Below are positions 32,423 to 41,800 of a stretch of 64,000 nt of DNA, in pieces. The stretch's first letter is position 1. Every line of letters begins with the position of its first letter. Position numbers and translations under genes: made by a program. The notes below the pieces were generated by a model. The model was given only the letters and a program-made list of their open reading frames with translations. It searched no databases and was not told where the DNA came from. This DNA is from Candidatus Zymogenaceae bacterium. Lineage in GTDB: Bacteria > Desulfobacterota > Zymogenia > Zymogenales > Zymogenaceae. The stretch spans positions 62,001 to 126,000 of the forward strand of contig JAFGFE010000039.1 in assembly GCA_016931225.1 (NCBI GenBank). Direction: 5' to 3'.

Positions 32423-34099
32423 TTAAGACTTCTTCTGTTTTTCGATCTCCTGGGCGCGAAGTTCTTTTCTGAGGACCTTGCCGACGGTGCTCTTGGGGAG
32501 GCTGTCTCTAAATTCCACGAGCTTGGGCACCTTATATTTCGCCAGCTTCTCCTTGCAGTAGGAGATAATCTCATCGCCGGTCATCGTCTCTCCCGGCTTG
32601 GGTACGATAAACACCTTCACCGTCTCGCCCCGGTACTCGTCCGGGACCCCCACGGCGCACGCCTCCTGCACCTTCGGGTGCTCATACAGCACCTCGTCGA
32701 TCTCCCGGGGATAGATGTTATAGCCGCCGGCGATGATCATGTCCTTTTTCCGGTCCACGATGTAGAAGTAACCGTCTTCGTCCATAGTCGCCACATCGCC
32801 GGTGTAGAGCCATCCGTCGCGAAGGGTTCCCTTCGTTTCGTCCGGCATGTTGTAATACCCCTGCATTACCTGGGGGCCACTGATGATGAGCTCTCCGGAG
32901 TTTCCCTGCTTGACCTCGGTTTTTTCGTCGTCCAAATCCACGATGCGACAGTCCGTATCCGGCAGCGGCACGCCGATGCTGCCGATCTTGGTTATACCGC
33001 CGAAGGGATTGATGTGGGTTACCGGTGTCGACTCGGTCAGTCCGAAGCCTTCGACGATTTTCGCACCGGTCATGGATTCAAATTCCTTGATGACCTCCAC
33101 CGGCAGCGGCGCCGAACCCGAGAAGCAGCCCTTGATGGATTTCAGGTCGCTCTTCTTGGTGTCCGGATGGGCCAGAAGCCCGATATACATGGTGGGCACC
33201 GCCGGGAAAAAGGTGGGCTTGAAGCTGGTGACCGCGTCCAGGATGGCGCTCGGCTCCGGCCGGGGGATGAGTATGTCGGCCCATCCCATATAGATGCAGA
33301 AGTTCATCACGCAGGTGAGGCCGAACACATGAAAAAACGGGAGCACGGCAATGCCGATTTCACCTCCCTCGGTGAAGGTGGGGAACCACGCCTTGAGCAT
33401 CTGAACATTCTTGCAGAGATTTTCGTGGGAGAGCATGACGCCTTTGGAGACGCCGGTGGTGCCGCCGGTGTACTGGAACAGGGCGGTGTCGCTAAAAGCG
33501 ATGTCCGCTTTAATGGGTGTCGGGGGATATGCAGCCAGGACCTTTTTGAAGAAATGAACGTTCTCCGCTTGGGGGACATCCGCCTTCATCCCCTTCTTCT
33601 TGGCGACCAGGGGAAACAGAAGACTCTTGGGGAAGGGGAGGTAATCACCGATGCCGGTGACGATGATGTTCTTCACCTTTGTCTTGGGCTTAAGAGCAAT
33701 CATTCTCGGTGCCAGAAGGTCCAGGCAGACCAGCAACACGGACTCCGAATTATTAAGCTGGTGTTCCAGTTCCCGGTCGGAGTATAGGGGATTGTTCATC
33801 ACAACGATGGCGCCGATCCTGAGGGCGGCGTAGAACGCCACGACGCATTGAATCAGGTTCGGCAGCAGGATGGCGATTCGGTCCCCCTTTTTGACTCCCA
33901 TGTCTATGTATGCCGCCGCCAGGCGGTTTACCATCTCGTCCAGTTTTTCGTAGGTAACGGTATAGCCCTGGAAAATAAGGGCGGTATTTTTGGGATACTT
34001 TTCCCGTGATCTGGTCAGCGCCTCAGGGAGGGTTATTTCGTCGTAGTCGATATTGTGGGGAACTCCCGGGGCATACGATGTGTGCCACAGTTTGTCCAT
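32423..34099 (-). CDS. Long-chain acyl-CoA synthetase (AMP-forming)
   Basis: A 558-residue ANL-superfamily ligase. It has canonical LFQYTGGTTGVSKGVMLSHENL near residue 215, VEGFGLTESTPVTHINPFGG, GWLYTGDVATMDEDGYFYIVDRKKDMIIAGGYNIYPREIDEVLYEH and a final LPKSTVGKVLRKELR with the catalytic lysine. These are FadD-like features; chain length cannot be read from sequence. It is the upstream gene of a two-ligase unit, with AAGGA before the ATG. An alternative role is activation of aromatic or branched acids. Confidence 0.9.
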   Translation of the reverse strand: MDKLWHTSYAPGVPHNIDYDEITLPEALTRSREKYPKNTALIFQGYTVTYEKLDEMVNRLAAAYIDMGVKKGDRIAILLPNLIQCVVAFYAALRIGAIVVMNNPLYSDRELEHQLNNSESVLLVCLDLLAPRMIALKPKTKVKNIIVTGIGDYLPFPKSLLFPLVAKKKGMKADVPQAENVHFFKKVLAAYPPTPIKADIAFSDTALFQYTGGTTGVSKGVMLSHENLCKNVQMLKAWFPTFTEGGEIGIAVLPFFHVFGLTCVMNFCIYMGWADILIPRPEPSAILDAVTSFKPTFFPAVPTMYIGLLAHPDTKKSDLKSIKGCFSGSAPLPVEVIKEFESMTGAKIVEGFGLTESTPVTHINPFGGITKIGSIGVPLPDTDCRIVDLDDEKTEVKQGNSGELIISGPQVMQGYYNMPDETKGTLRDGWLYTGDVATMDEDGYFYIVDRKKDMIIAGGYNIYPREIDEVLYEHPKVQEACAVGVPDEYRGETVKVFIVPKPGETMTGDEIISYCKEKLAKYKVPKLVEFRDSLPKSTVGKVLRKELRAQEIEKQKKS

Positions 34100-34369: not shown

Positions 34370-35176
34370 ATGGGGCTGATTTCACTGTGTCATCCCGATG
34401 ACACGAAATCCTGCGGCGCCTGCTGCGGGCTCTACAACTGGACCGATCATAACCGCAGACAGGTGACGGAGCTCGTCAATCGTCGTACCGATATCTTTCG
34501 CTCCGGCATGTCGTACGGAAAAGACCTTCTGATCATCAAGGAAGAGCTTCAGGCGGCCGATTCCCTGGAAAGGCTCTTCGAGGTGATCTATAACTGCCCC
34601 TTTGTCGGCTTTGTGGATCAAGAGCGCCGACAGGTCGGCTGCATGATTCACCCGGTACATCACGGCGGCCGGGAGCTGAGGGACATTTCGCTGTACGGCG
34701 CCGAGCTGTGTCACGGTCATGAGTGTCCCAGCCATCAGGTGCTGACCGAGGTGGAAAGACGGCTTGTCATCGACAGCGTTGACGACTGGTACCTCTACGG
34801 CCTGGTAATCACGGATATCGACCTGATCAAAGAGTTCACGACCCTGGTCAGCAACCGGCTGGGCGAGGAGATACGGCCGCATCTGTTCAAAAACCGTCGG
34901 GTTCGAGACGCCGCGGCGTCCTTTTTCCGTCTCAAGGAGACCTGGCCCTATCGCAACGGGCAGCGGCGTTTCGGAAAATATTCGTTTTCCATCGCCGAGT
35001 ACCACATAGAGCGGGATGTGGCCGAGGGGGAACTGGACATCCCCGAATCCCCATTTAAAAAGATTTTTATAAGCCTCGCCACCCGATTCGAGAACGAGTC
35101 CGATGCGAGACGGGGCCACGGGATCATCGAGGACAGCATCACTCGGTTTGTTCAATTGTACAGGGGGGCGGCGTGA
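34370..35176 (+). CDS. Cysteine-rich N-terminal protein, probable metal or Fe-S binder
   Basis: A 268-residue soluble protein of unknown family. All eight cysteines lie in the first 122 residues: C7, C15, C18, C19, C76, C91, C114 and C119, in contexts [17 protein letters not shown] and [10 protein letters not shown] with nearby histidines. The remaining 145 residues are helical, charged and cysteine-free. This suggests a zinc or iron-sulphur domain attached to a helical effector part; CGACC recalls YkgJ-type metal-binding proteins, but I cannot assign it. The ATG at 34370 fits the promoter just upstream. Its stop overlaps the dtd GTG start. Confidence 0.6.
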
Positions 35177-35622
35177 GGGCGGTTGTACAGCGGGTCTCAA
35201 GGGCCCGGGTGGATGTCGAAGATCTGACCGTGGGAGAGATCGGGATGGGGCTGTGCGTGCTTTTGGGGGTGGAGCGGGGGGACGGGGAGGCCGACCTTGC
35301 CTACGTATTTGATAAGATCGTGAACCTGAGAATATTTGAGGACGACGAGGGGAAGATGAACCGATCGCTGCTGGAGGTGGGCGGGGCGTTGCTGGTGGTG
35401 TCTCAATTCACCCTGCTGGGTGATGTCAGGAAGGGAAGGCGACCCTCTTTCGTCGCCGCCGAGGAGCCGGGGAGGGCCAATGAGCTGTATGAACAGTTTC
35501 TCGCCCGCGCCCGGGAGATGAGCATCGAGACGGCGGGAGGCGTATTCCAGGCGATGATGGATGTGACGCTCACGAATCAGGGGCCGGTCACTTTCATTGT
35601 GGACAGTAAAAAACGTTTTTGA
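35173..35622 (+). CDS. dtd: D-aminoacyl-tRNA deacylase
   Basis: Dtd hydrolyses D-amino acids (and glycine) from mischarged tRNAs in the cytoplasm. The 149-residue length is exact for the family; [13 protein letters not shown] starts the protein, the catalytic SQFTL motif is at residues 77-81 and the active-site NQGPVT loop begins at N135. It starts at a GTG overlapping the upstream stop (GTGA) and is the second gene of an apparent operon. Confidence 0.97.
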
Positions 35623-35635
35623 TATGATATGTCAA

Positions 35636-36130
35636 ATGGATTCTTACAAGCCGTATACCATCTCGATCGACAAAGACGGGCTGTGGTATTACAACGGACG
35701 TCAGATTATTCACCCCACGGTCCTGAGAATGTTCAACGACGGGCTCAGTCTGCTTGATGACGGAACGTACATTCTTGAGGTTGAGGGAGATCGGGCGCCG
35801 GTGGAGGTGGAGGACGCGCCGATCGTGGTTCGGGGCGTCATGCCGGTCAAGGATCGTGATGACGGATTGGTCGGTTTCATCCTGGCCCTTTCCGACGATA
35901 CGAAAGAAGCGCTGGACCCTGACACCCTCAGTATCAATGAAAAGAACATTCCATACTGCATAGTGAAGAGGGAGGGCGTAAACGCCCCCCGGGGGCTGAT
36001 GGCCCGGTTCACATCCAAGGCGTACTACGCCCTGGCGGAATATATCGAACATGACGAGGATGAAGACGCCTATTTCATCGAGACCGTGCGGAAGAGATTT
36101 ACAATACCGTATCAGGGGGCCGATGCATGA
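35636..36130 (+). CDS. DUF1285-like protein
   Basis: A 164-residue soluble protein. YTISIDKDGLWYYNGRQIIHPTVLRMFNDGLSLLDDGTYILEVEGDRAPVEVEDAPIVV follows the DUF1285 pattern (a small dimeric two-domain fold known from structural genomics). A paralogue is encoded at 38244-38663; aligning them supports ATG 35636 over in-frame ATGs at 35597 and 35624. The last four bases overlap the next gene. Function unknown; the two copies bracket an Sm-like, a GGDEF-like and an HD gene. Confidence 0.65.
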   Translation: MDSYKPYTISIDKDGLWYYNGRQIIHPTVLRMFNDGLSLLDDGTYILEVEGDRAPVEVEDAPIVVRGVMPVKDRDDGLVGFILALSDDTKEALDPDTLSINEKNIPYCIVKREGVNAPRGLMARFTSKAYYALAEYIEHDEDEDAYFIETVRKRFTIPYQGADA

Positions 36131-36321
36131 GGGGAGATCTGGGCAGCCTTGTCGGCAAGGATGTGGAAGTCATGGCCAATGGTACCGTCTACAGGGGAAG
36201 GCTCATTGAGGTGGGGATCGAGGAGGTGTACCTCAGAGCCGATACGAGATGGATTACCATCATGACCTCAGCGGTTAGCGAAATACATGAGATTCACAGC
36301 TCCGAGACCGTGGATCGATGA
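36127..36321 (+). CDS. Small Sm-like (SH3-type barrel) protein
   Basis: A 64-residue protein. LVGKDVEVMANGTVYRGRLIEVGIEEVYLRADTRWITIMTSAVSEI has the five-strand spacing and turn glycines of LSm/Hfq-like small barrels, including the G at the strand-2 bend and a final SAVSEI strand. It could bind RNA or merely serve as a scaffold. The ATG overlaps the DUF1285-like stop (ATGA), so the two proteins are probably made together. The fold call is inference from pattern. Confidence 0.55.
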   Translation: MRGDLGSLVGKDVEVMANGTVYRGRLIEVGIEEVYLRADTRWITIMTSAVSEIHEIHSSETVDR

Positions 36322-36355
36322 CCGCCGGATAAATTCATATGTGGAGTGACAGATT

Positions 36356-37600
36356 ATGTACAGTCCAACGGCGCTTTTTTCCATTAATGCATCGTTAATA
36401 TGCGTGGCCTTTTCGGCGCTTTTCTTTATTTTATATCTTTCCATTGATCGAAGGGCCCAGTTTCTCGGATACTGCCTGGTAACCCTGGCGCTGGCGATTC
36501 ACCAGGCGGCGATTGTGCTTCGCGTGTTGTTTGAAAACAATCACGAGCAATACCTGTTTTGGATCAAGGTGGCATATATTGTTGCCGTACTCATCGGCGG
36601 TGCCCTGACCGCCGTGTCGAACATGCTGACAGGTCGGACGGTTCGTTCGAGGCTCCTGCTGCTGTTCACCGTGACCGTGGTGCTGGTTGTGCTGCTTGTG
36701 TTTACGCCGCTGTTCGGCGACGTTACCGAAACGGGGCAAGACGGATATACCTTTACGCCGGGTCTGACGGTATATATCGTCGGCCTGTTCCTGGTGGTTC
36801 TCTTGTGTGTCGTCGTCGCCCGCCTGTTGTATCCCTTCTTCCTCGGGGAAAGGAATCCCCGAGCCAAATCATATGTCATCGTGGCCGTTGCCGCAGGTTT
36901 CCTCATGCTTTCCCTGATAATGGACATCGCGGTGGATTTCGGCATCGTCACCCCTCTCCGCTGTGCCTATTCGGCGCCGGGGGCCATCATCTGGGTGGTC
37001 GTGGGCGCGGTGGGGATCTTGTACCAGTATTATCGGATGGTGGCGCCGGGGAAACGGGTGCTCGTGCACCTGCGCGAATCCCGTGATACGCTTGCCGCCG
37101 ACAAGATGGCGATTTCCGACAATCTGACGAATCTATTCACCAGGGACTTTTTTGATGAAAATATCGAGGCGGAGGTCCTGGACTCGATACAGCAGAACCG
37201 CTCACTCTCTCTGATGATGATAGAGCTTGACGACTTTAAAAACGTGAAAAAGGTGCTGGGCAACGAATTGAGCGACAATCTCATATCCGAGATAGCGGCC
37301 GTTATCAAGCGGCATCTCAAGGGAAGCGACATTCCCGCCCGGTACGAGATGGAAATGTTCGCGATACTCCTGCCCAATACCAGCACGCCGGGCGCCGAGG
37401 AGGTTGCCGAGCGCATCAGGCATATAGTGGAGGAAATGGAGTTTCTCTCTCCCGGAAATCCTGATGTAAGGGTGACCGTCTCTATGGGTGTTGCGACATT
37501 GCGGGGATCCGACGTGCCCGCTGATCTGATGAAAAGGTGTGTGGATTCCCTGAAGTCTTCGATAAAACACGGCGGGAACCGGGTGAGTGTTGCCACGTGA
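36356..37600 (+). CDS. Multi-pass membrane protein with degenerate GGDEF domain
   Basis: A 414-residue protein. Residues 1-230 hold seven hydrophobic segments, beginning LFSINASLICVAFSALFFILYLSI, similar in layout to 7TM sensor regions of signalling proteins. The C-terminal 170 residues follow a GGDEF domain: DNLTNLFTRDFFDENIEAEV, LMMIELDDFKNVKKVLG, and VSMGVATLRGSDVPADLMKRCVDSLKSSIKHGGNRV. The active-site GGDEF is replaced by EMEMF at 331-335, so diguanylate cyclase activity is not expected. It may be a GTP/c-di-GMP sensor or a regulator of partners. The stop overlaps the HD gene. Confidence 0.8.
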   Translation: MYSPTALFSINASLICVAFSALFFILYLSIDRRAQFLGYCLVTLALAIHQAAIVLRVLFENNHEQYLFWIKVAYIVAVLIGGALTAVSNMLTGRTVRSRLLLLFTVTVVLVVLLVFTPLFGDVTETGQDGYTFTPGLTVYIVGLFLVVLLCVVVARLLYPFFLGERNPRAKSYVIVAVAAGFLMLSLIMDIAVDFGIVTPLRCAYSAPGAIIWVVVGAVGILYQYYRMVAPGKRVLVHLRESRDTLAADKMAISDNLTNLFTRDFFDENIEAEVLDSIQQNRSLSLMMIELDDFKNVKKVLGNELSDNLISEIAAVIKRHLKGSDIPARYEMEMFAILLPNTSTPGAEEVAERIRHIVEEMEFLSPGNPDVRVTVSMGVATLRGSDVPADLMKRCVDSLKSSIKHGGNRVSVAT

Positions 37601-38202
37601 CGATCCTCTCCGATCATTTCGATCCAACCGACGATCCGCTGTTTTGTGACCTGATCGATGCGGTACGGGAGTGTTTTGTCGATGACGATTCCCATGGGAT
37701 GAATCACGCCCTGAACACCCTGGATTTTGCGCTGGCGATCGCCGACGGGCTGAAAAGAAGAGAAGGTGCGGATATCGACCTCTACGCCCTGGCCGCCGCC
37801 GCCCTGATGCACGATATCGGCAGGGAGAATATCTTCTTTGATCCGGGGCACGGCGGGCGGGGCGCACGGCGCGCCGATGATATCCTCACGAGGTTGGGCG
37901 CCCCCTGGGATCGTGAGAAGATCATGCGTCTCATCGCCCTGCATGACGAAGAGGGGATCGACTGTGAGTCGGAGCCGATGGAGCTGATAATCCTCAGGGA
38001 TGCCGACAAGCTGGAGCTTTTGCGCATCGGGCCGGATTATCTTGACCTTGATCGACTGGTCACCCGGGAGGCGCTGGCTCTTGTCGAAGAGGTACTGGCC
38101 CGATACGATACCGGAGATAACGAGTATCGGAAACGGGCCGATGAAACGACCAGACGGGCGAAAGGCCTGCTGGGAAAGAGAGAGCATAACACGGCACCGT
38201 AA
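37597..38202 (+). CDS. HD-domain phosphohydrolase
   Basis: A 201-residue cytoplasmic protein of the HD superfamily. Metal-ligand motifs are SHGMNHALNTLDFALAI (first His), ALMHDIGR (the HD pair), ALHDEEG and RDADKLELLRIG. Such enzymes cleave nucleotides or phosphoesters; the substrate is unknown. The GTG start overlaps the stop of the GGDEF-like gene (GTGA), a strong hint that the pair works together. It could degrade a nucleotide signal that the membrane protein senses, but that is inference. Confidence 0.85.
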   Translation: MTILSDHFDPTDDPLFCDLIDAVRECFVDDDSHGMNHALNTLDFALAIADGLKRREGADIDLYALAAAALMHDIGRENIFFDPGHGGRGARRADDILTRLGAPWDREKIMRLIALHDEEGIDCESEPMELIILRDADKLELLRIGPDYLDLDRLVTREALALVEEVLARYDTGDNEYRKRADETTRRAKGLLGKREHNTAP

Positions 38203-38243
38203 CAGGAGCGGTATACATATTCAAGGAGAACGGGAGGCGCATC

Positions 38244-38663
38244 ATGGAGTCTCAACAGCTTTTTTTTCGCATCGATTATGAAGGACGGTGGTATGGTCCA
38301 GACGGCAAAGAGGTAAACGAGGCGAGCATCTATTTTTTGACAAATAACATCCGCTCCGATGAAAACGGGTATTTTGTCGGCATGGGATTCGGCCCGGCAA
38401 AGCTGATTGTTGAGGACGTCCCGTTTGTCATCCAGACGGTACAGAGAAAAGACGGCGATCCCCCCTTTCTTGAGCTGGTACTCACCGACGGCGTCACGGA
38501 AGCGCTGGATCCTGAGACCCTCTCGATAAAAAAAGGCGAGGTCGATCTCTACTACTGCATGGTGCGGGGTGGGCAGTTCCCGGCCCGGTTTTCGGACGAG
38601 GCGGCCCGGGTGCTCGAACAGTACCTCACCAGGGAGGAGGATAGTGTTTTCCTGACCCTGTAA
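38244..38663 (+). CDS. DUF1285-like protein, second copy
   Basis: A 139-residue soluble protein homologous to the 35636 product: FRIDYEGRWYGPDGKEVNEASIYFL against ISIDKDGLWYYNGRQIIHPTVLRMF, then VEDVPFVIQTV and TEALDPETLSIKKGEV against KEALDPDTLSINEKNI. It lacks the C-terminal 20-25 residues of the first copy. GGGAGG precedes the ATG. It closes the five-gene group from 35636. Confidence 0.65.
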   Translation: MESQQLFFRIDYEGRWYGPDGKEVNEASIYFLTNNIRSDENGYFVGMGFGPAKLIVEDVPFVIQTVQRKDGDPPFLELVLTDGVTEALDPETLSIKKGEVDLYYCMVRGGQFPARFSDEAARVLEQYLTREEDSVFLTL

Positions 38664-38804
38664 AAAGTGTGGGTGTCCTTGGTGTCTTGACGGCGATACA
38701 TCTTTTCCGTGTCGCCGTTTGCGTATTGCGAAATGTCGAACGAACCGGGGCCGCTTTTTTCCGTCTTTAGCGATCCATTACGAGGAAAATCCCTTTATTT
38801 GTCC

Positions 38805-38880: not shown

Positions 38881-39993
38881 ATGCAGATAATTGAAGTAGT
38901 GGACAAAAGAGATCTGAAGGATTTTGTGAAATTTCCTTTTGATCTCTATCGAGACCACCCGGTCTGGGTGCCGCCGCTGAGAATAATGGCTAACCGGGAA
39001 TTCGATCGAAAGAAAAACGGTTTTTTCGAACACGCCGACGCCGCTTTTTTCATGGTCAAAGACGGCGATCGGGTCCTGGGGCGCATCGCCGCATTTATCA
39101 ATCTCAATTACTTGAAACATTACGACGACAAGGTCGGTTTTTTCGGTTCATTTGAATCGGTGGATGATCAGGAAGTGGCGCGCCTTCTGGTGCACGGCGC
39201 CTGCGATTGGCTGAAGGAGCGGGGCATGGATCTCATCCGCGGCCCGTATAATTTCACCTCCCAGAGCACCGGATGCCTCATTGAGGGGTTCGACCAGGCG
39301 CAGATTTGCCTGAGTCCCTACAATTATCCATACTATGATCGGATACTCCGGAGTACGGAACTGGTAAAAATAAGAGACCTGAACGCCTATTACGGTGATT
39401 CCCTGGAGCGGTATACGTTTCCGGATCGCTTCACCCGGTACGCGGAACTTCTGATGAAACGATACGGCGTGACGGTTCGTACCCTGCAAAAGATGCGGCT
39501 CCACGATGATATTCTGGACCTGATACGGGTGGGAAACCAGGCATCCAGCGGGAACTGGGGATTCGTCCCCGCCGACGAGGCGGAGGTCGACGAGATTGTC
39601 CGCAGTTTTAAACCGGTAATGGATCCCGACGCGGTCTTCCTGATGTACAAGGGGGAGACGCCCATCGGTTACGCCATCGCTCTGCCGGATATCAACCGCA
39701 TCATCAAGAAACTGGACGGGAGGCTCTTTCCCTTTGGTATTTTTCGTTTAAAGTACGGTGTGAAGAGGCTCCGGGAATACCGCCTCCTCGGGCTGGGGCT
39801 GGTACCGCAGTACCAGAGCAAGGCCCTGGACACGCTGCTCTATTACAGCATTTTTAAAAGCCTCATCAAGAAACATGCCCGGCTGGAGGCGAACTGGGTT
39901 CTGGAGAGTAACTACAAGATGAACCACGCCCTCGTCAAGCTCAACATGAAACTCACGAAGCGCTACCGGCTCTACCAGAAGCCGCTGGACTGA
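38881..39993 (+). CDS. GNAT-fold acyltransferase-like protein
   Basis: A 370-residue soluble protein. The N-terminal half (VKFPFDLYRDHPVWVPPLR, FFMVKDGDRVLGRIAAFINLNYL, VGFFGSFESVDDQEVARLLVHGACDWLKERGMDLIRGPYNFT) and the C-terminal YRLLGLGLVPQYQSKALDTLLYYSI resemble an acyl-CoA N-acyltransferase fold in a family of uncharacterised proteins. No substrate can be named. It is a single gene with its own promoter and a strong terminator, so it is regulated alone. A start without clear Shine-Dalgarno is noted. Confidence 0.65.
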   Translation: MQIIEVVDKRDLKDFVKFPFDLYRDHPVWVPPLRIMANREFDRKKNGFFEHADAAFFMVKDGDRVLGRIAAFINLNYLKHYDDKVGFFGSFESVDDQEVARLLVHGACDWLKERGMDLIRGPYNFTSQSTGCLIEGFDQAQICLSPYNYPYYDRILRSTELVKIRDLNAYYGDSLERYTFPDRFTRYAELLMKRYGVTVRTLQKMRLHDDILDLIRVGNQASSGNWGFVPADEAEVDEIVRSFKPVMDPDAVFLMYKGETPIGYAIALPDINRIIKKLDGRLFPFGIFRLKYGVKRLREYRLLGLGLVPQYQSKALDTLLYYSIFKSLIKKHARLEANWVLESNYKMNHALVKLNMKLTKRYRLYQKPLD

Positions 39994-40125: not shown

Positions 40126-40725
40126 TTATCGGTGCAGCACGGTGATCTCCACATCTCCCGGCGTGCCGATGATGCCGGCCAGGTTCACCACATATATCGA
40201 ACCGTGGGATACCCCGGGGGGAATGCGGAGAGAGAACCTGCCGATTGTTCTTCCCTCCGCGTCCGGTACGGAAATATCGAACACACCGCCCCGCATCGCT
40301 TCATATCGGGTCAGGTATATTTCAAGACAGCGCCGGGTGTGAGGGGGGATCGATCGGGAGTCAAACGTATCTGCATTGCGAATATGGGGGGTGATGGTAA
40401 AAAAGCGTTCGAACAGGGATGAAAACGTGTCGAAAACAGACCGCGACGGCTGGGGCGCCGGTCCGGAGCGCCTCAATGGACGACCGGACCGGGCAAAAAC
40501 ATCGGGGGACGGGGAGATTGTCGGCAGGATGGCATCGTACTCGGCGCGTTTCCTTCGGTCACCCAGTATCTCATAGGCCTCCTGCACATTGTACAGGTCT
40601 TCCGCGGTCATATCGCAGTCAAGAGAGTCGGGATGACACCGTTTGATACTATCCCGGTAGGCTCGTTTTATCCTTTCAACAGAGGCATCCCGGGGTATGC
40701 CGAGTATTTTATAATAATCCTTCAA
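40126..40725 (-). CDS. J-domain protein without zinc finger
   Basis: A 199-residue J-protein. Residues 1-65 are a J domain (DYYKILGIPRDASVERIKRAYRDSIKRCHPDS) with the HPD motif needed to stimulate DnaK. A Ser/Pro/Arg-rich linker follows, then one C-terminal substrate-binding-like domain (CLEIYLTRYEAMRGGVFDISVPDAEGRTIGRFSLRIPPGVSHGS). There is no cysteine-rich zinc finger and only one such domain, so it is a short type II or specialised co-chaperone. The start appears to be TTG. It is the third gene of a minus-strand unit behind two Hsp20 genes. Confidence 0.88.
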   Translation of the reverse strand: MKDYYKILGIPRDASVERIKRAYRDSIKRCHPDSLDCDMTAEDLYNVQEAYEILGDRRKRAEYDAILPTISPSPDVFARSGRPLRRSGPAPQPSRSVFDTFSSLFERFFTITPHIRNADTFDSRSIPPHTRRCLEIYLTRYEAMRGGVFDISVPDAEGRTIGRFSLRIPPGVSHGSIYVVNLAGIIGTPGDVEITVLHR

Positions 40726-40756
40726 CGTACCGCTCGTCCCGTGTTCTTAAGATAAA

Positions 40757-41155
40757 TTACGATACGGCGATCTTTCTCGGTTTTGCCTTTTCAACCTTCG
40801 GCAGCACCAATGTCAGGACTCCGTTGGTCAGTTGTGCCGAGATTTTTTCCTGGTCAATCACCTCGCTGAGGGTGAACTGCCTCTGGTAATTGCCCACGCC
40901 GTATTCACGAACGAGATAGCGGCGCTCCTCGTCTTCGACATCGGCCTTGCCCAGGATGGTCAGGGTGTCGTCCCTCAGGTCGATCTCAAGGTTCTTCGGA
41001 TCAACTCCGGGCAAATCCGCCAGCAGGGTCAGCTCTTTTTCGGTTTCATATATGTCCACTCGGGGGCGATAGTATACGCCCTCTCGGGTGCCCTCGGCCT
41101 TGGCCGATGATTCGGACTGTGTGCTTTTCTGTACTTCAAGTTCCTTGTCTTTCAT
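40757..41155 (-). CDS. Small heat-shock protein, Hsp20 family
   Basis: A 132-residue alpha-crystallin-type chaperone. The domain runs from YRPRVDIYETEKELTLLADLPGVDPKNLEIDLRDDTLTI to the signature LTNGVLTLVLPKVEKAKPRKIAVS, with the conserved NGVL motif. The N-terminal arm is short and charged, lacking a terminal IxI motif. GGAGGG precedes the ATG. It sits 31 bases downstream of the second Hsp20 gene and shares its promoter. Confidence 0.95.
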   Translation of the reverse strand: MKDKELEVQKSTQSESSAKAEGTREGVYYRPRVDIYETEKELTLLADLPGVDPKNLEIDLRDDTLTILGKADVEDEERRYLVREYGVGNYQRQFTLSEVIDQEKISAQLTNGVLTLVLPKVEKAKPRKIAVS

Positions 41156-41186
41156 GGATCGTCCCTCCTTCTCTCAAAAGGGTGGA

Positions 41187-41639
41187 TCATTCATTGGCCT
41201 TGATGGTGATCTGTTTTGGCTTGGACTCCTCGGCCTTGGCCATCTTCACCGTCAGGACGCCGTTCTTCAGGCTCGCCTCGACCTTTTCAGGATCGATTCG
41301 GTCTCCCAAGGTGACGACCCGGGAAAACTTACCGCCGCTTCGCTCCCGGCGATGGTAGTTGACGTCCTCTGCATCTTCGATCTTTCGCTCTCCCTTGAGG
41401 GTAATGCTGTCGTAGACCGCCGTGATTTCCAGGTCCTTCTGCTCGATCCCCGGAATCTCCGCGTTGAGAAAGTAGTTGTCGCTGTCCTCGTACACATTTA
41501 CCGCCGGGAACACCCCCATGGTCCGGGGTCCCCCCTCTCCGGGAGAGAAATGATCCACAATACGGGCCATCTGCTGCTGCAGCCGGGAGAACTCATTTAA
41601 AAACGGATCCCTCGGCACAAACCATCTGTAACGGTTCAT
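41187..41639 (-). CDS. Small heat-shock protein, Hsp20 family
   Basis: A 150-residue Hsp20 with the layout of HspA-type proteins: N-terminal MNRYRWFVPRDPFLNEFSRLQQQMARI, alpha-crystallin domain with VNVYEDSDNYFLNAEIPGIEQKDLEI and ASLKNGVLTVKMAKAEESKPKQITI. ATG at 41639 is chosen for the GGAGGG 6 bases upstream; the frame extends to 41780 without support. First gene of a three-gene chaperone unit (Hsp20, Hsp20, J-protein) that likely responds to heat or protein damage. Confidence 0.95.
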   Translation of the reverse strand: MNRYRWFVPRDPFLNEFSRLQQQMARIVDHFSPGEGGPRTMGVFPAVNVYEDSDNYFLNAEIPGIEQKDLEITAVYDSITLKGERKIEDAEDVNYHRRERSGGKFSRVVTLGDRIDPEKVEASLKNGVLTVKMAKAEESKPKQITIKANE

Positions 41640-41700
41640 GATATCCCTCCTTCTTTCCTGTATACTCTTTACACTGAATACATGTCTCGCTTTTAAAAAA

Positions 41701-41728
41701 AATATAATCATGTTTTTTCTGATGTCAA
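41701..41728 (-). promoter_or_regulatory. Sigma70-type promoter of the chaperone unit
   Basis: On the minus strand TTGACA (41728-41723) and TATATT (41706-41701) are 16 bases apart, about 60 bases upstream of the Hsp20 start. No CIRCE inverted repeat was seen. Confidence 0.65.
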
Positions 41729-41748
41729 GGGGACGTGATGTGTCCTGT

Positions 41749-41777
41749 TTGACAATATACAGAATGACGCATATAAT
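41749..41777 (+). promoter_or_regulatory. Perfect consensus sigma70 promoter
   Basis: TTGACA at 41749-41754, a 17-base spacer and TATAAT at 41772-41777, all exact consensus. GGAGG at 41786-41790 and the ATG at 41801 follow, giving a leader of only about 17 bases. It is divergent from the chaperone promoter 21 bases away. Confidence 0.85.
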
Positions 41778-41800
41778 CATGCGATTGGAGGACTACGTAT

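Follow-up and report, generated by a model that had tools for sequence, protein, structure and literature searches.

Gene content of the locus

The window analysed here, a stretch of 64,000 nucleotides from contig JAFGFE010000039.1 of a Candidatus Zymogenaceae bacterium, carries on its forward strand a run of seven genes (34370–38663) that brings together the tRNA-proofreading enzyme Dtd and two DUF1285 proteins, and that likely constitutes a single operon. The run opens with a gene for a YkgJ-like cysteine protein (34370–35176), which contains a CGACCGLYN motif and has no Pfam match, and continues with dtd, encoding D-aminoacyl-tRNA deacylase (35173–35622, GTG start). The dtd product scores 188 bits against Pfam Tyr_Deacylase and 184.7 bits against the TIGR00256 equivalog, for which the cut-off is 101.5 bits. 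Next come DUF1285-A (35636–36130), a 64-residue Sm-like protein (36127–36321), a membrane protein with seven hydrophobic segments and a C-terminal degenerate GGDEF domain (36356–37600), an HD-domain phosphohydrolase (37597–38202, GTG start) and DUF1285-B (38244–38663). The genes overlap by 4 bp at the YkgJ-like/dtd, DUF1285-A/Sm-like and GGDEF/HD junctions, 13 bp separate the end of dtd from DUF1285-A, and the remaining gaps measure 34 bp (Sm-like to GGDEF gene) and 41 bp (HD to DUF1285-B).

The initial annotation of this DNA had taken the last five of these genes (35636–38663) as a compact signalling system in which several members share stop-start overlaps. All five open reading frames are present there, and such overlaps exist at the DUF1285-A/Sm-like and GGDEF/HD junctions, the other two junctions within the group being the 34-bp and 41-bp gaps. 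As a natural unit, however, the five genes leave out the YkgJ-like gene and Dtd, the strongly conserved partner of DUF1285, and they are likely the tail of the longer candidate operon.

Conservation of the gene neighbourhood

A search with DUF1285-B over 148 relatives returned DUF1285 genes in 64 genomes, belonging to 28 families, and distances to dtd were taken from the search coordinates. The distance from dtd to DUF1285 is at most 150 bp in 24 of these 64 genomes (13 families; in one genome, G102, the two genes are convergent) and at most 1 kb in 29 genomes and 15 of the 28 families, where chance predicts about 0.0009 per genome. This adjacency is far beyond chance, and Dtd–DUF1285 is the widely conserved core of the locus. 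The published account of DUF1285 places the family in a Nudix and oxidative-stress context, with Nudix genes as its neighbours, and mentions neither tRNA nor deacylase (PMC2954208); here and across the phylum, in contrast, the commonest neighbour is Dtd.

Further tRNA, translation and nucleotide genes adjoin DUF1285 elsewhere (families among the relatives compared carry f-labels). DUF1285 overlaps MnmE in three f19 genomes (one by profile, two by clustering), is followed by QueA in f20, and stands between Dtd and a SpoU-type methylase with gaps of 4–8 bp in f18, f53 and f59, where two of the methylases scored as TrmL-like. A second DUF1285 copy follows the elongation factor P (EF-P) and EpmA genes in f37, a dGTPase gene overlaps DUF1285 downstream of Dtd in f31, and IMPDH comes after DUF1285 in f30. 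The DUF1285 gene of Sphingomonas and Rhizobium plasmids shares an overlap with a Nudix CoA pyrophosphatase gene, which in turn overlaps that for the CCA tRNA nucleotidyltransferase. Inspection by eye assigns the frames beside the Methylobacterium gene to Nudix and CCA transferase; at the Sinorhizobium locus the CCA transferase is present and no Nudix gene is listed, and at the Paracoccus locus neither was seen. Caulobacter vibrioides, too, has a DUF1285 gene. This alphaproteobacterial arrangement, in which overlapping genes join DUF1285 to a nucleotide pyrophosphatase and a tRNA 3'-end enzyme, is comparable to the set in the window, although in the window the places of tRNA enzyme and hydrolase are taken by Dtd and an HD protein, both of other families. 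Nucleotide hydrolases thus recur beside DUF1285 as dGTPase (f31), Nudix (Alphaproteobacteria) and HD (the window). In an Acinetobacter baumannii record (L181:4905-6431), DUF1285 lies 48 bp upstream of the glutamate racemase gene murI, another link to D-amino acids.

The whole set recurs in a genome of another genus of the same family (G002), so the families do co-occur outside the present genome. One end of its contig C55 reads ykgJ-dtd-DUF1285-A-Sm-GGDEF, and its 4.3-kb contig C44 reads HD-DUF1285-B-GNAT. Identities to the window proteins are 48–69% for most genes, 57–59% for the YkgJ-like homologue at the same position and 65% for the GNAT-like homologue beside DUF1285-B; the membrane proteins are 39% identical across their full alignment. 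We infer full linkage in this genome from its outer flanks, which match those in the window, with ykgJ and dtd at one end and GNAT at the other. In the other two genomes of the family, drafts that are 88–89% complete, searches did not find DUF1285, Sm-like or Dtd genes.

Taken together, the presence of DUF1285 beside tRNA-care and translation genes in many related bacteria suggests a role in translation quality control rather than in membrane signalling. We tentatively favour a seven-gene operon built on an old Dtd–DUF1285 translation-quality module and extended in this family by an HD hydrolase and a putative membrane scaffold. Several observations weigh against this reading. Co-location is not interaction, and our literature search found no biochemistry of any DUF1285 protein. 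Many DUF1285 genes lie elsewhere, beside PpiC/SurA, IMPDH, DUF1015, MaoC or ComEC-like genes. With Dtd excluded, about 3 of the 11 distinct tight contexts, which were listed by hand, hold tRNA or translation genes (P ~0.004–0.025 under assumed backgrounds of 3–6%), an enrichment that is suggestive rather than conclusive. Furthermore, the HD, membrane and DUF1285-B genes were seen together only in this genome and in G002, both from one family, and a contig break whose ends are non-coding separates the GGDEF from the HD gene in G002. The restriction of the full set to two genomes and the unrelated neighbours of many DUF1285 genes would also fit a simpler account, in which DUF1285 shares housekeeping operons with dtd and tRNA genes without functional relation and one family has kept the group in the window, a run of same-strand genes that arose by chance. 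We consider this somewhat unlikely, as Dtd–DUF1285 adjacency in 15 of 28 families far exceeds chance and other clades join DUF1285 to different tRNA genes without dtd (MnmE, EpmA, CCA).

The DUF1285 and Sm-like proteins

The initial annotation's assignments of two paralogous DUF1285-like proteins, a 64-residue Sm-like barrel, a seven-segment membrane protein with an inactive GGDEF domain and a member of the HD phosphohydrolase family all agree with the profile searches, motifs and structure models described below. DUF1285-A matches Pfam DUF1285_N (PF06938) with E=1.3e-6 and 28.5 bits, just below the cut-off of 29.3, and with 29.4 bits in the genome-wide search, just above it. Its membership is borderline by score and is backed by the predicted fold: the AlphaFold2 model, built with 48 family members as input, has a predicted local distance difference test score (pLDDT) of 91, and its only significant matches in the PDB are the DUF1285 structures 2re3 and 2ra9 (Foldseek E ~2.5e-8, template modelling score 0.61–0.77), so that DUF1285-A is predicted to adopt their two-domain fold. 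These structures revealed a new fold with a conserved, apparently non-catalytic interdomain cleft that resembles purine, sugar and phosphate sites, and a signalling role was proposed (PMC2954208); our literature search gave no further paper on the function of DUF1285.

DUF1285-B is shorter and lies below Pfam detection, with no significant match of its own in the Pfam search. It retrieves DUF1285-A at 5.4e-11 in the search over relatives and the two proteins match each other reciprocally at E about 1e-10, and by these matches DUF1285-B is a clear paralogue of DUF1285-A (PF06938/PF21028). Its orthologues were found only in G002 among the 148 relatives. Among 48 DUF1285 proteins placed in a tree, A and B group separately, each with its own G002 orthologue, and lie far apart, B on a long branch, which places the duplication, as judged from the tree, before the split of the two genera. 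Two paralogues in one candidate operon set this locus apart from the published family. Elsewhere, a divergent DUF1285 subtype matched by the DUF1285-B query only was seen in two records (L185:4033-4500, L186:3811-4287) and lies 23 bp downstream of purC in genome G035, and one DUF1285 reading frame contains an in-frame TAG (L028:1477-1950; contig C258 of G049), which could reflect a pseudogene, a sequencing error or readthrough.

The Sm-like protein is predicted to form an N-terminal helix followed by a five-stranded bent Sm barrel (AlphaFold2 model, pLDDT 84; helix 5–8, strands 12–17, 20–29, 33–37, 42–46 and 50–55). The top Foldseek matches of this model are Hfq and LSm chains at a probability of 1.00, with E-values of 0.004–0.02 (at least 4.4e-3) that are modest, as expected, because the query has only 64 residues; profile searches match LSm6 and SmAP chains at E 0.01–0.03. 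While the predicted topology is that of Hfq/LSm proteins, the Pfam search gave no significant match, including none to Hfq/LSm. The family alignment, read by eye as VxV...YRGxLxE...V.LR...I, shows neither an evident Arg-Gly of the Sm2 motif nor an evident Asp/Asn of Sm1, the RNA-contact residues. The protein is not the Hfq of this genome, as a canonical Hfq is encoded on another contig. It adjoins DUF1285 also in three f12 genomes (gap 140–203 bp), yet is not specific to DUF1285: in f45, relatives are flanked by a GspK-like type II secretion gene on one side and a YoaA/DinG-type helicase gene on the other (L010:6703-6927, L012:6034-6240, and L144 and L145). The protein and these relatives form an Sm-fold family that is not yet catalogued and for which f45 provides a second conserved setting.

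The membrane GGDEF protein and the HD hydrolase

Residues 252–408 of the membrane protein score 104.7 bits against Pfam GGDEF. The signature reads RYEMEMF (YEMEM) in place of RYGGDEF, and YGKSL in the G002 orthologue; the I-site RxxD, five residues before the signature, is KGSD in the window and KGRD in G002, so that its arginine is replaced by lysine in both. Loss of the GG(D/E)EF motif in both genomes argues against an active diguanylate cyclase, and loss of RxxD against a canonical I-site receptor for cyclic di-GMP (c-di-GMP); therefore c-di-GMP synthesis, or c-di-GMP binding at the standard I-site, is unlikely as judged from these residues. The protein shares a C-terminal GGDEF domain on seven membrane segments with other degenerate membrane GGDEF proteins, but has lost both motifs. 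Its seven-segment part had no recognisable relative beyond G002 among the matches listed, and a viral-contig scan with the whole protein found nothing.

The HD protein scores 35.7 bits against Pfam HD, and its putative metal ligands H37, H72-D73, H85, H116 and D135/D137 are invariant with the G002 orthologue. This pattern fits, at the sequence level, the six-ligand motif H...HD...H...H...D, which has been tied to dinuclear enzymes such as the Ap4A (diadenosine tetraphosphate) hydrolase YqeK, whereas YpgQ is mononuclear (PMC8177086). The nearest PDB sequence is 2pq7 (E=2.9e-7), with the YpgQ-like chains 3djb and 3dto also among the nearest; H85 and H116 align with 2pq7 and are absent from the YpgQ-like chains. 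An Ap4A-type substrate is thus possible. The HD protein falls outside the YqeK family, however, as it does not match TIGR00488; the spacing from the HD histidine to the third histidine is 13 residues, as opposed to 33 in YqeK. A search of the genome gave no full-scoring YqeK, the best match being 20.3 bits on another contig. An HD-GYP phosphodiesterase is ruled out by the single H116 (followed by D) in place of an HH pair and by the missing GYP triad. Orthologues turned up only in G002 in an HD-profile search of 395 genomes of the phylum, and among 84,980 species genomes scanned with peptide patterns only three distant HD proteins came up, although such patterns may miss divergent orthologues.

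Could these two proteins nonetheless form a nucleotide second-messenger system, in which the membrane GGDEF sensor controls the HD hydrolase, with DUF1285 and the Sm-like protein as ligand- or RNA-binding partners, as the initial annotation proposed? Their genes share a 4-bp overlap and are both present in G002, the GGDEF protein has seven hydrophobic segments, the HD metal ligands are intact, and signalling had been suggested for DUF1285 before. However, the GGDEF signature, the I-site and the HD-GYP features are all missing, and the conserved partner of DUF1285 is Dtd rather than a sensor. Moreover, in the other families that we examined, the genes directly beside DUF1285 on its strand included no GGDEF gene, and the neighbours of DUF1285 are often genes for tRNA, translation or nucleotide enzymes. 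We regard a signalling system as unlikely; most likely the group is an extended Dtd–DUF1285 translation-quality operon and not primarily a sensor system. Quite improbable, finally, is a house-cleaning unit for the nucleotide pool with Dtd as a passenger and the HD protein as a YpgQ-type (d)NTP pyrophosphohydrolase, which would agree with the nearness of 3djb and 3dto, the activity of YpgQ on NTPs and dNTPs (PMC8177086) and the dGTPase beside DUF1285 in f31, but not with H85 and H116, which are shared with 2pq7 and belong to the motif of dinuclear enzymes.

A possible role in translation quality control

What might DUF1285 contribute next to a tRNA-proofreading enzyme? Enzymes of the Dtd family remove D-amino acids or mis-charged glycine from tRNA. 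Beyond Dtd itself, each functional step of the translation-quality operon is one that we infer from the observed anatomy and linkage. Most likely, DUF1285 would bind a ligand of nucleotide type without catalysis and in concert with tRNA-handling enzymes such as Dtd; this ligand could be the adenosine at the tRNA end or a nucleotide that arises under aminoacylation stress. Because of its six-ligand metal motif, the HD protein may hydrolyse a nucleotide connected with the same process, for example a dinucleoside polyphosphate. The membrane GGDEF protein, having in all likelihood lost c-di-GMP synthesis, would probably serve as a membrane scaffold or nucleotide-binding switch, and the Sm-like protein, whose predicted fold is supported by the structure matches, may be a small-barrel partner of DUF1285-A distinct from canonical Hfq.

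A more specific version is highly doubtful at present: DUF1285 proteins would be translation-quality factors of a new class, which recognise the 3' adenosine of tRNA or a nucleotide released by faulty aminoacylation and couple Dtd proofreading to the hydrolysis of an aminoacylation-linked, Ap4A-like nucleotide by a membrane-tethered HD enzyme, with the inactive GGDEF protein as scaffold. For this orphan family, whose crystal structures date back to 2007, translation quality control is the role to which the recurrent linkage to Dtd, tRNA modification, tRNA repair and EF-P in unrelated lineages points. The operon in the window offers natural candidate partners in the HD hydrolase, the Sm-fold protein and the membrane scaffold.

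Flanking genes

Upstream, a gene assigned by sequence as an AMP ligase (32423–34099) lies on the strand opposite to the YkgJ-like gene. Downstream, 217 bp separate DUF1285-B from the gene of a GNAT-like acyltransferase (38881–39993, forward strand; weak GNAT match), which is probably a separate unit. A hairpin with a short T run 3' of DUF1285-B (38690–38719, forward strand) is a possible but weak operon end, with a folding z of −0.69, which is not significant, and no call in the terminator scan. The CGACCGLYN cysteine protein, without a Pfam match, is present in 46 of the 148 relatives (for instance L188:2446-3276); in G076 it is also encoded upstream of dtd, with a small cysteine protein in between. 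Just beyond the gene group, the minus strand encodes a DnaJ-like protein and two adjacent Hsp20-like small heat-shock proteins (40126–41780).

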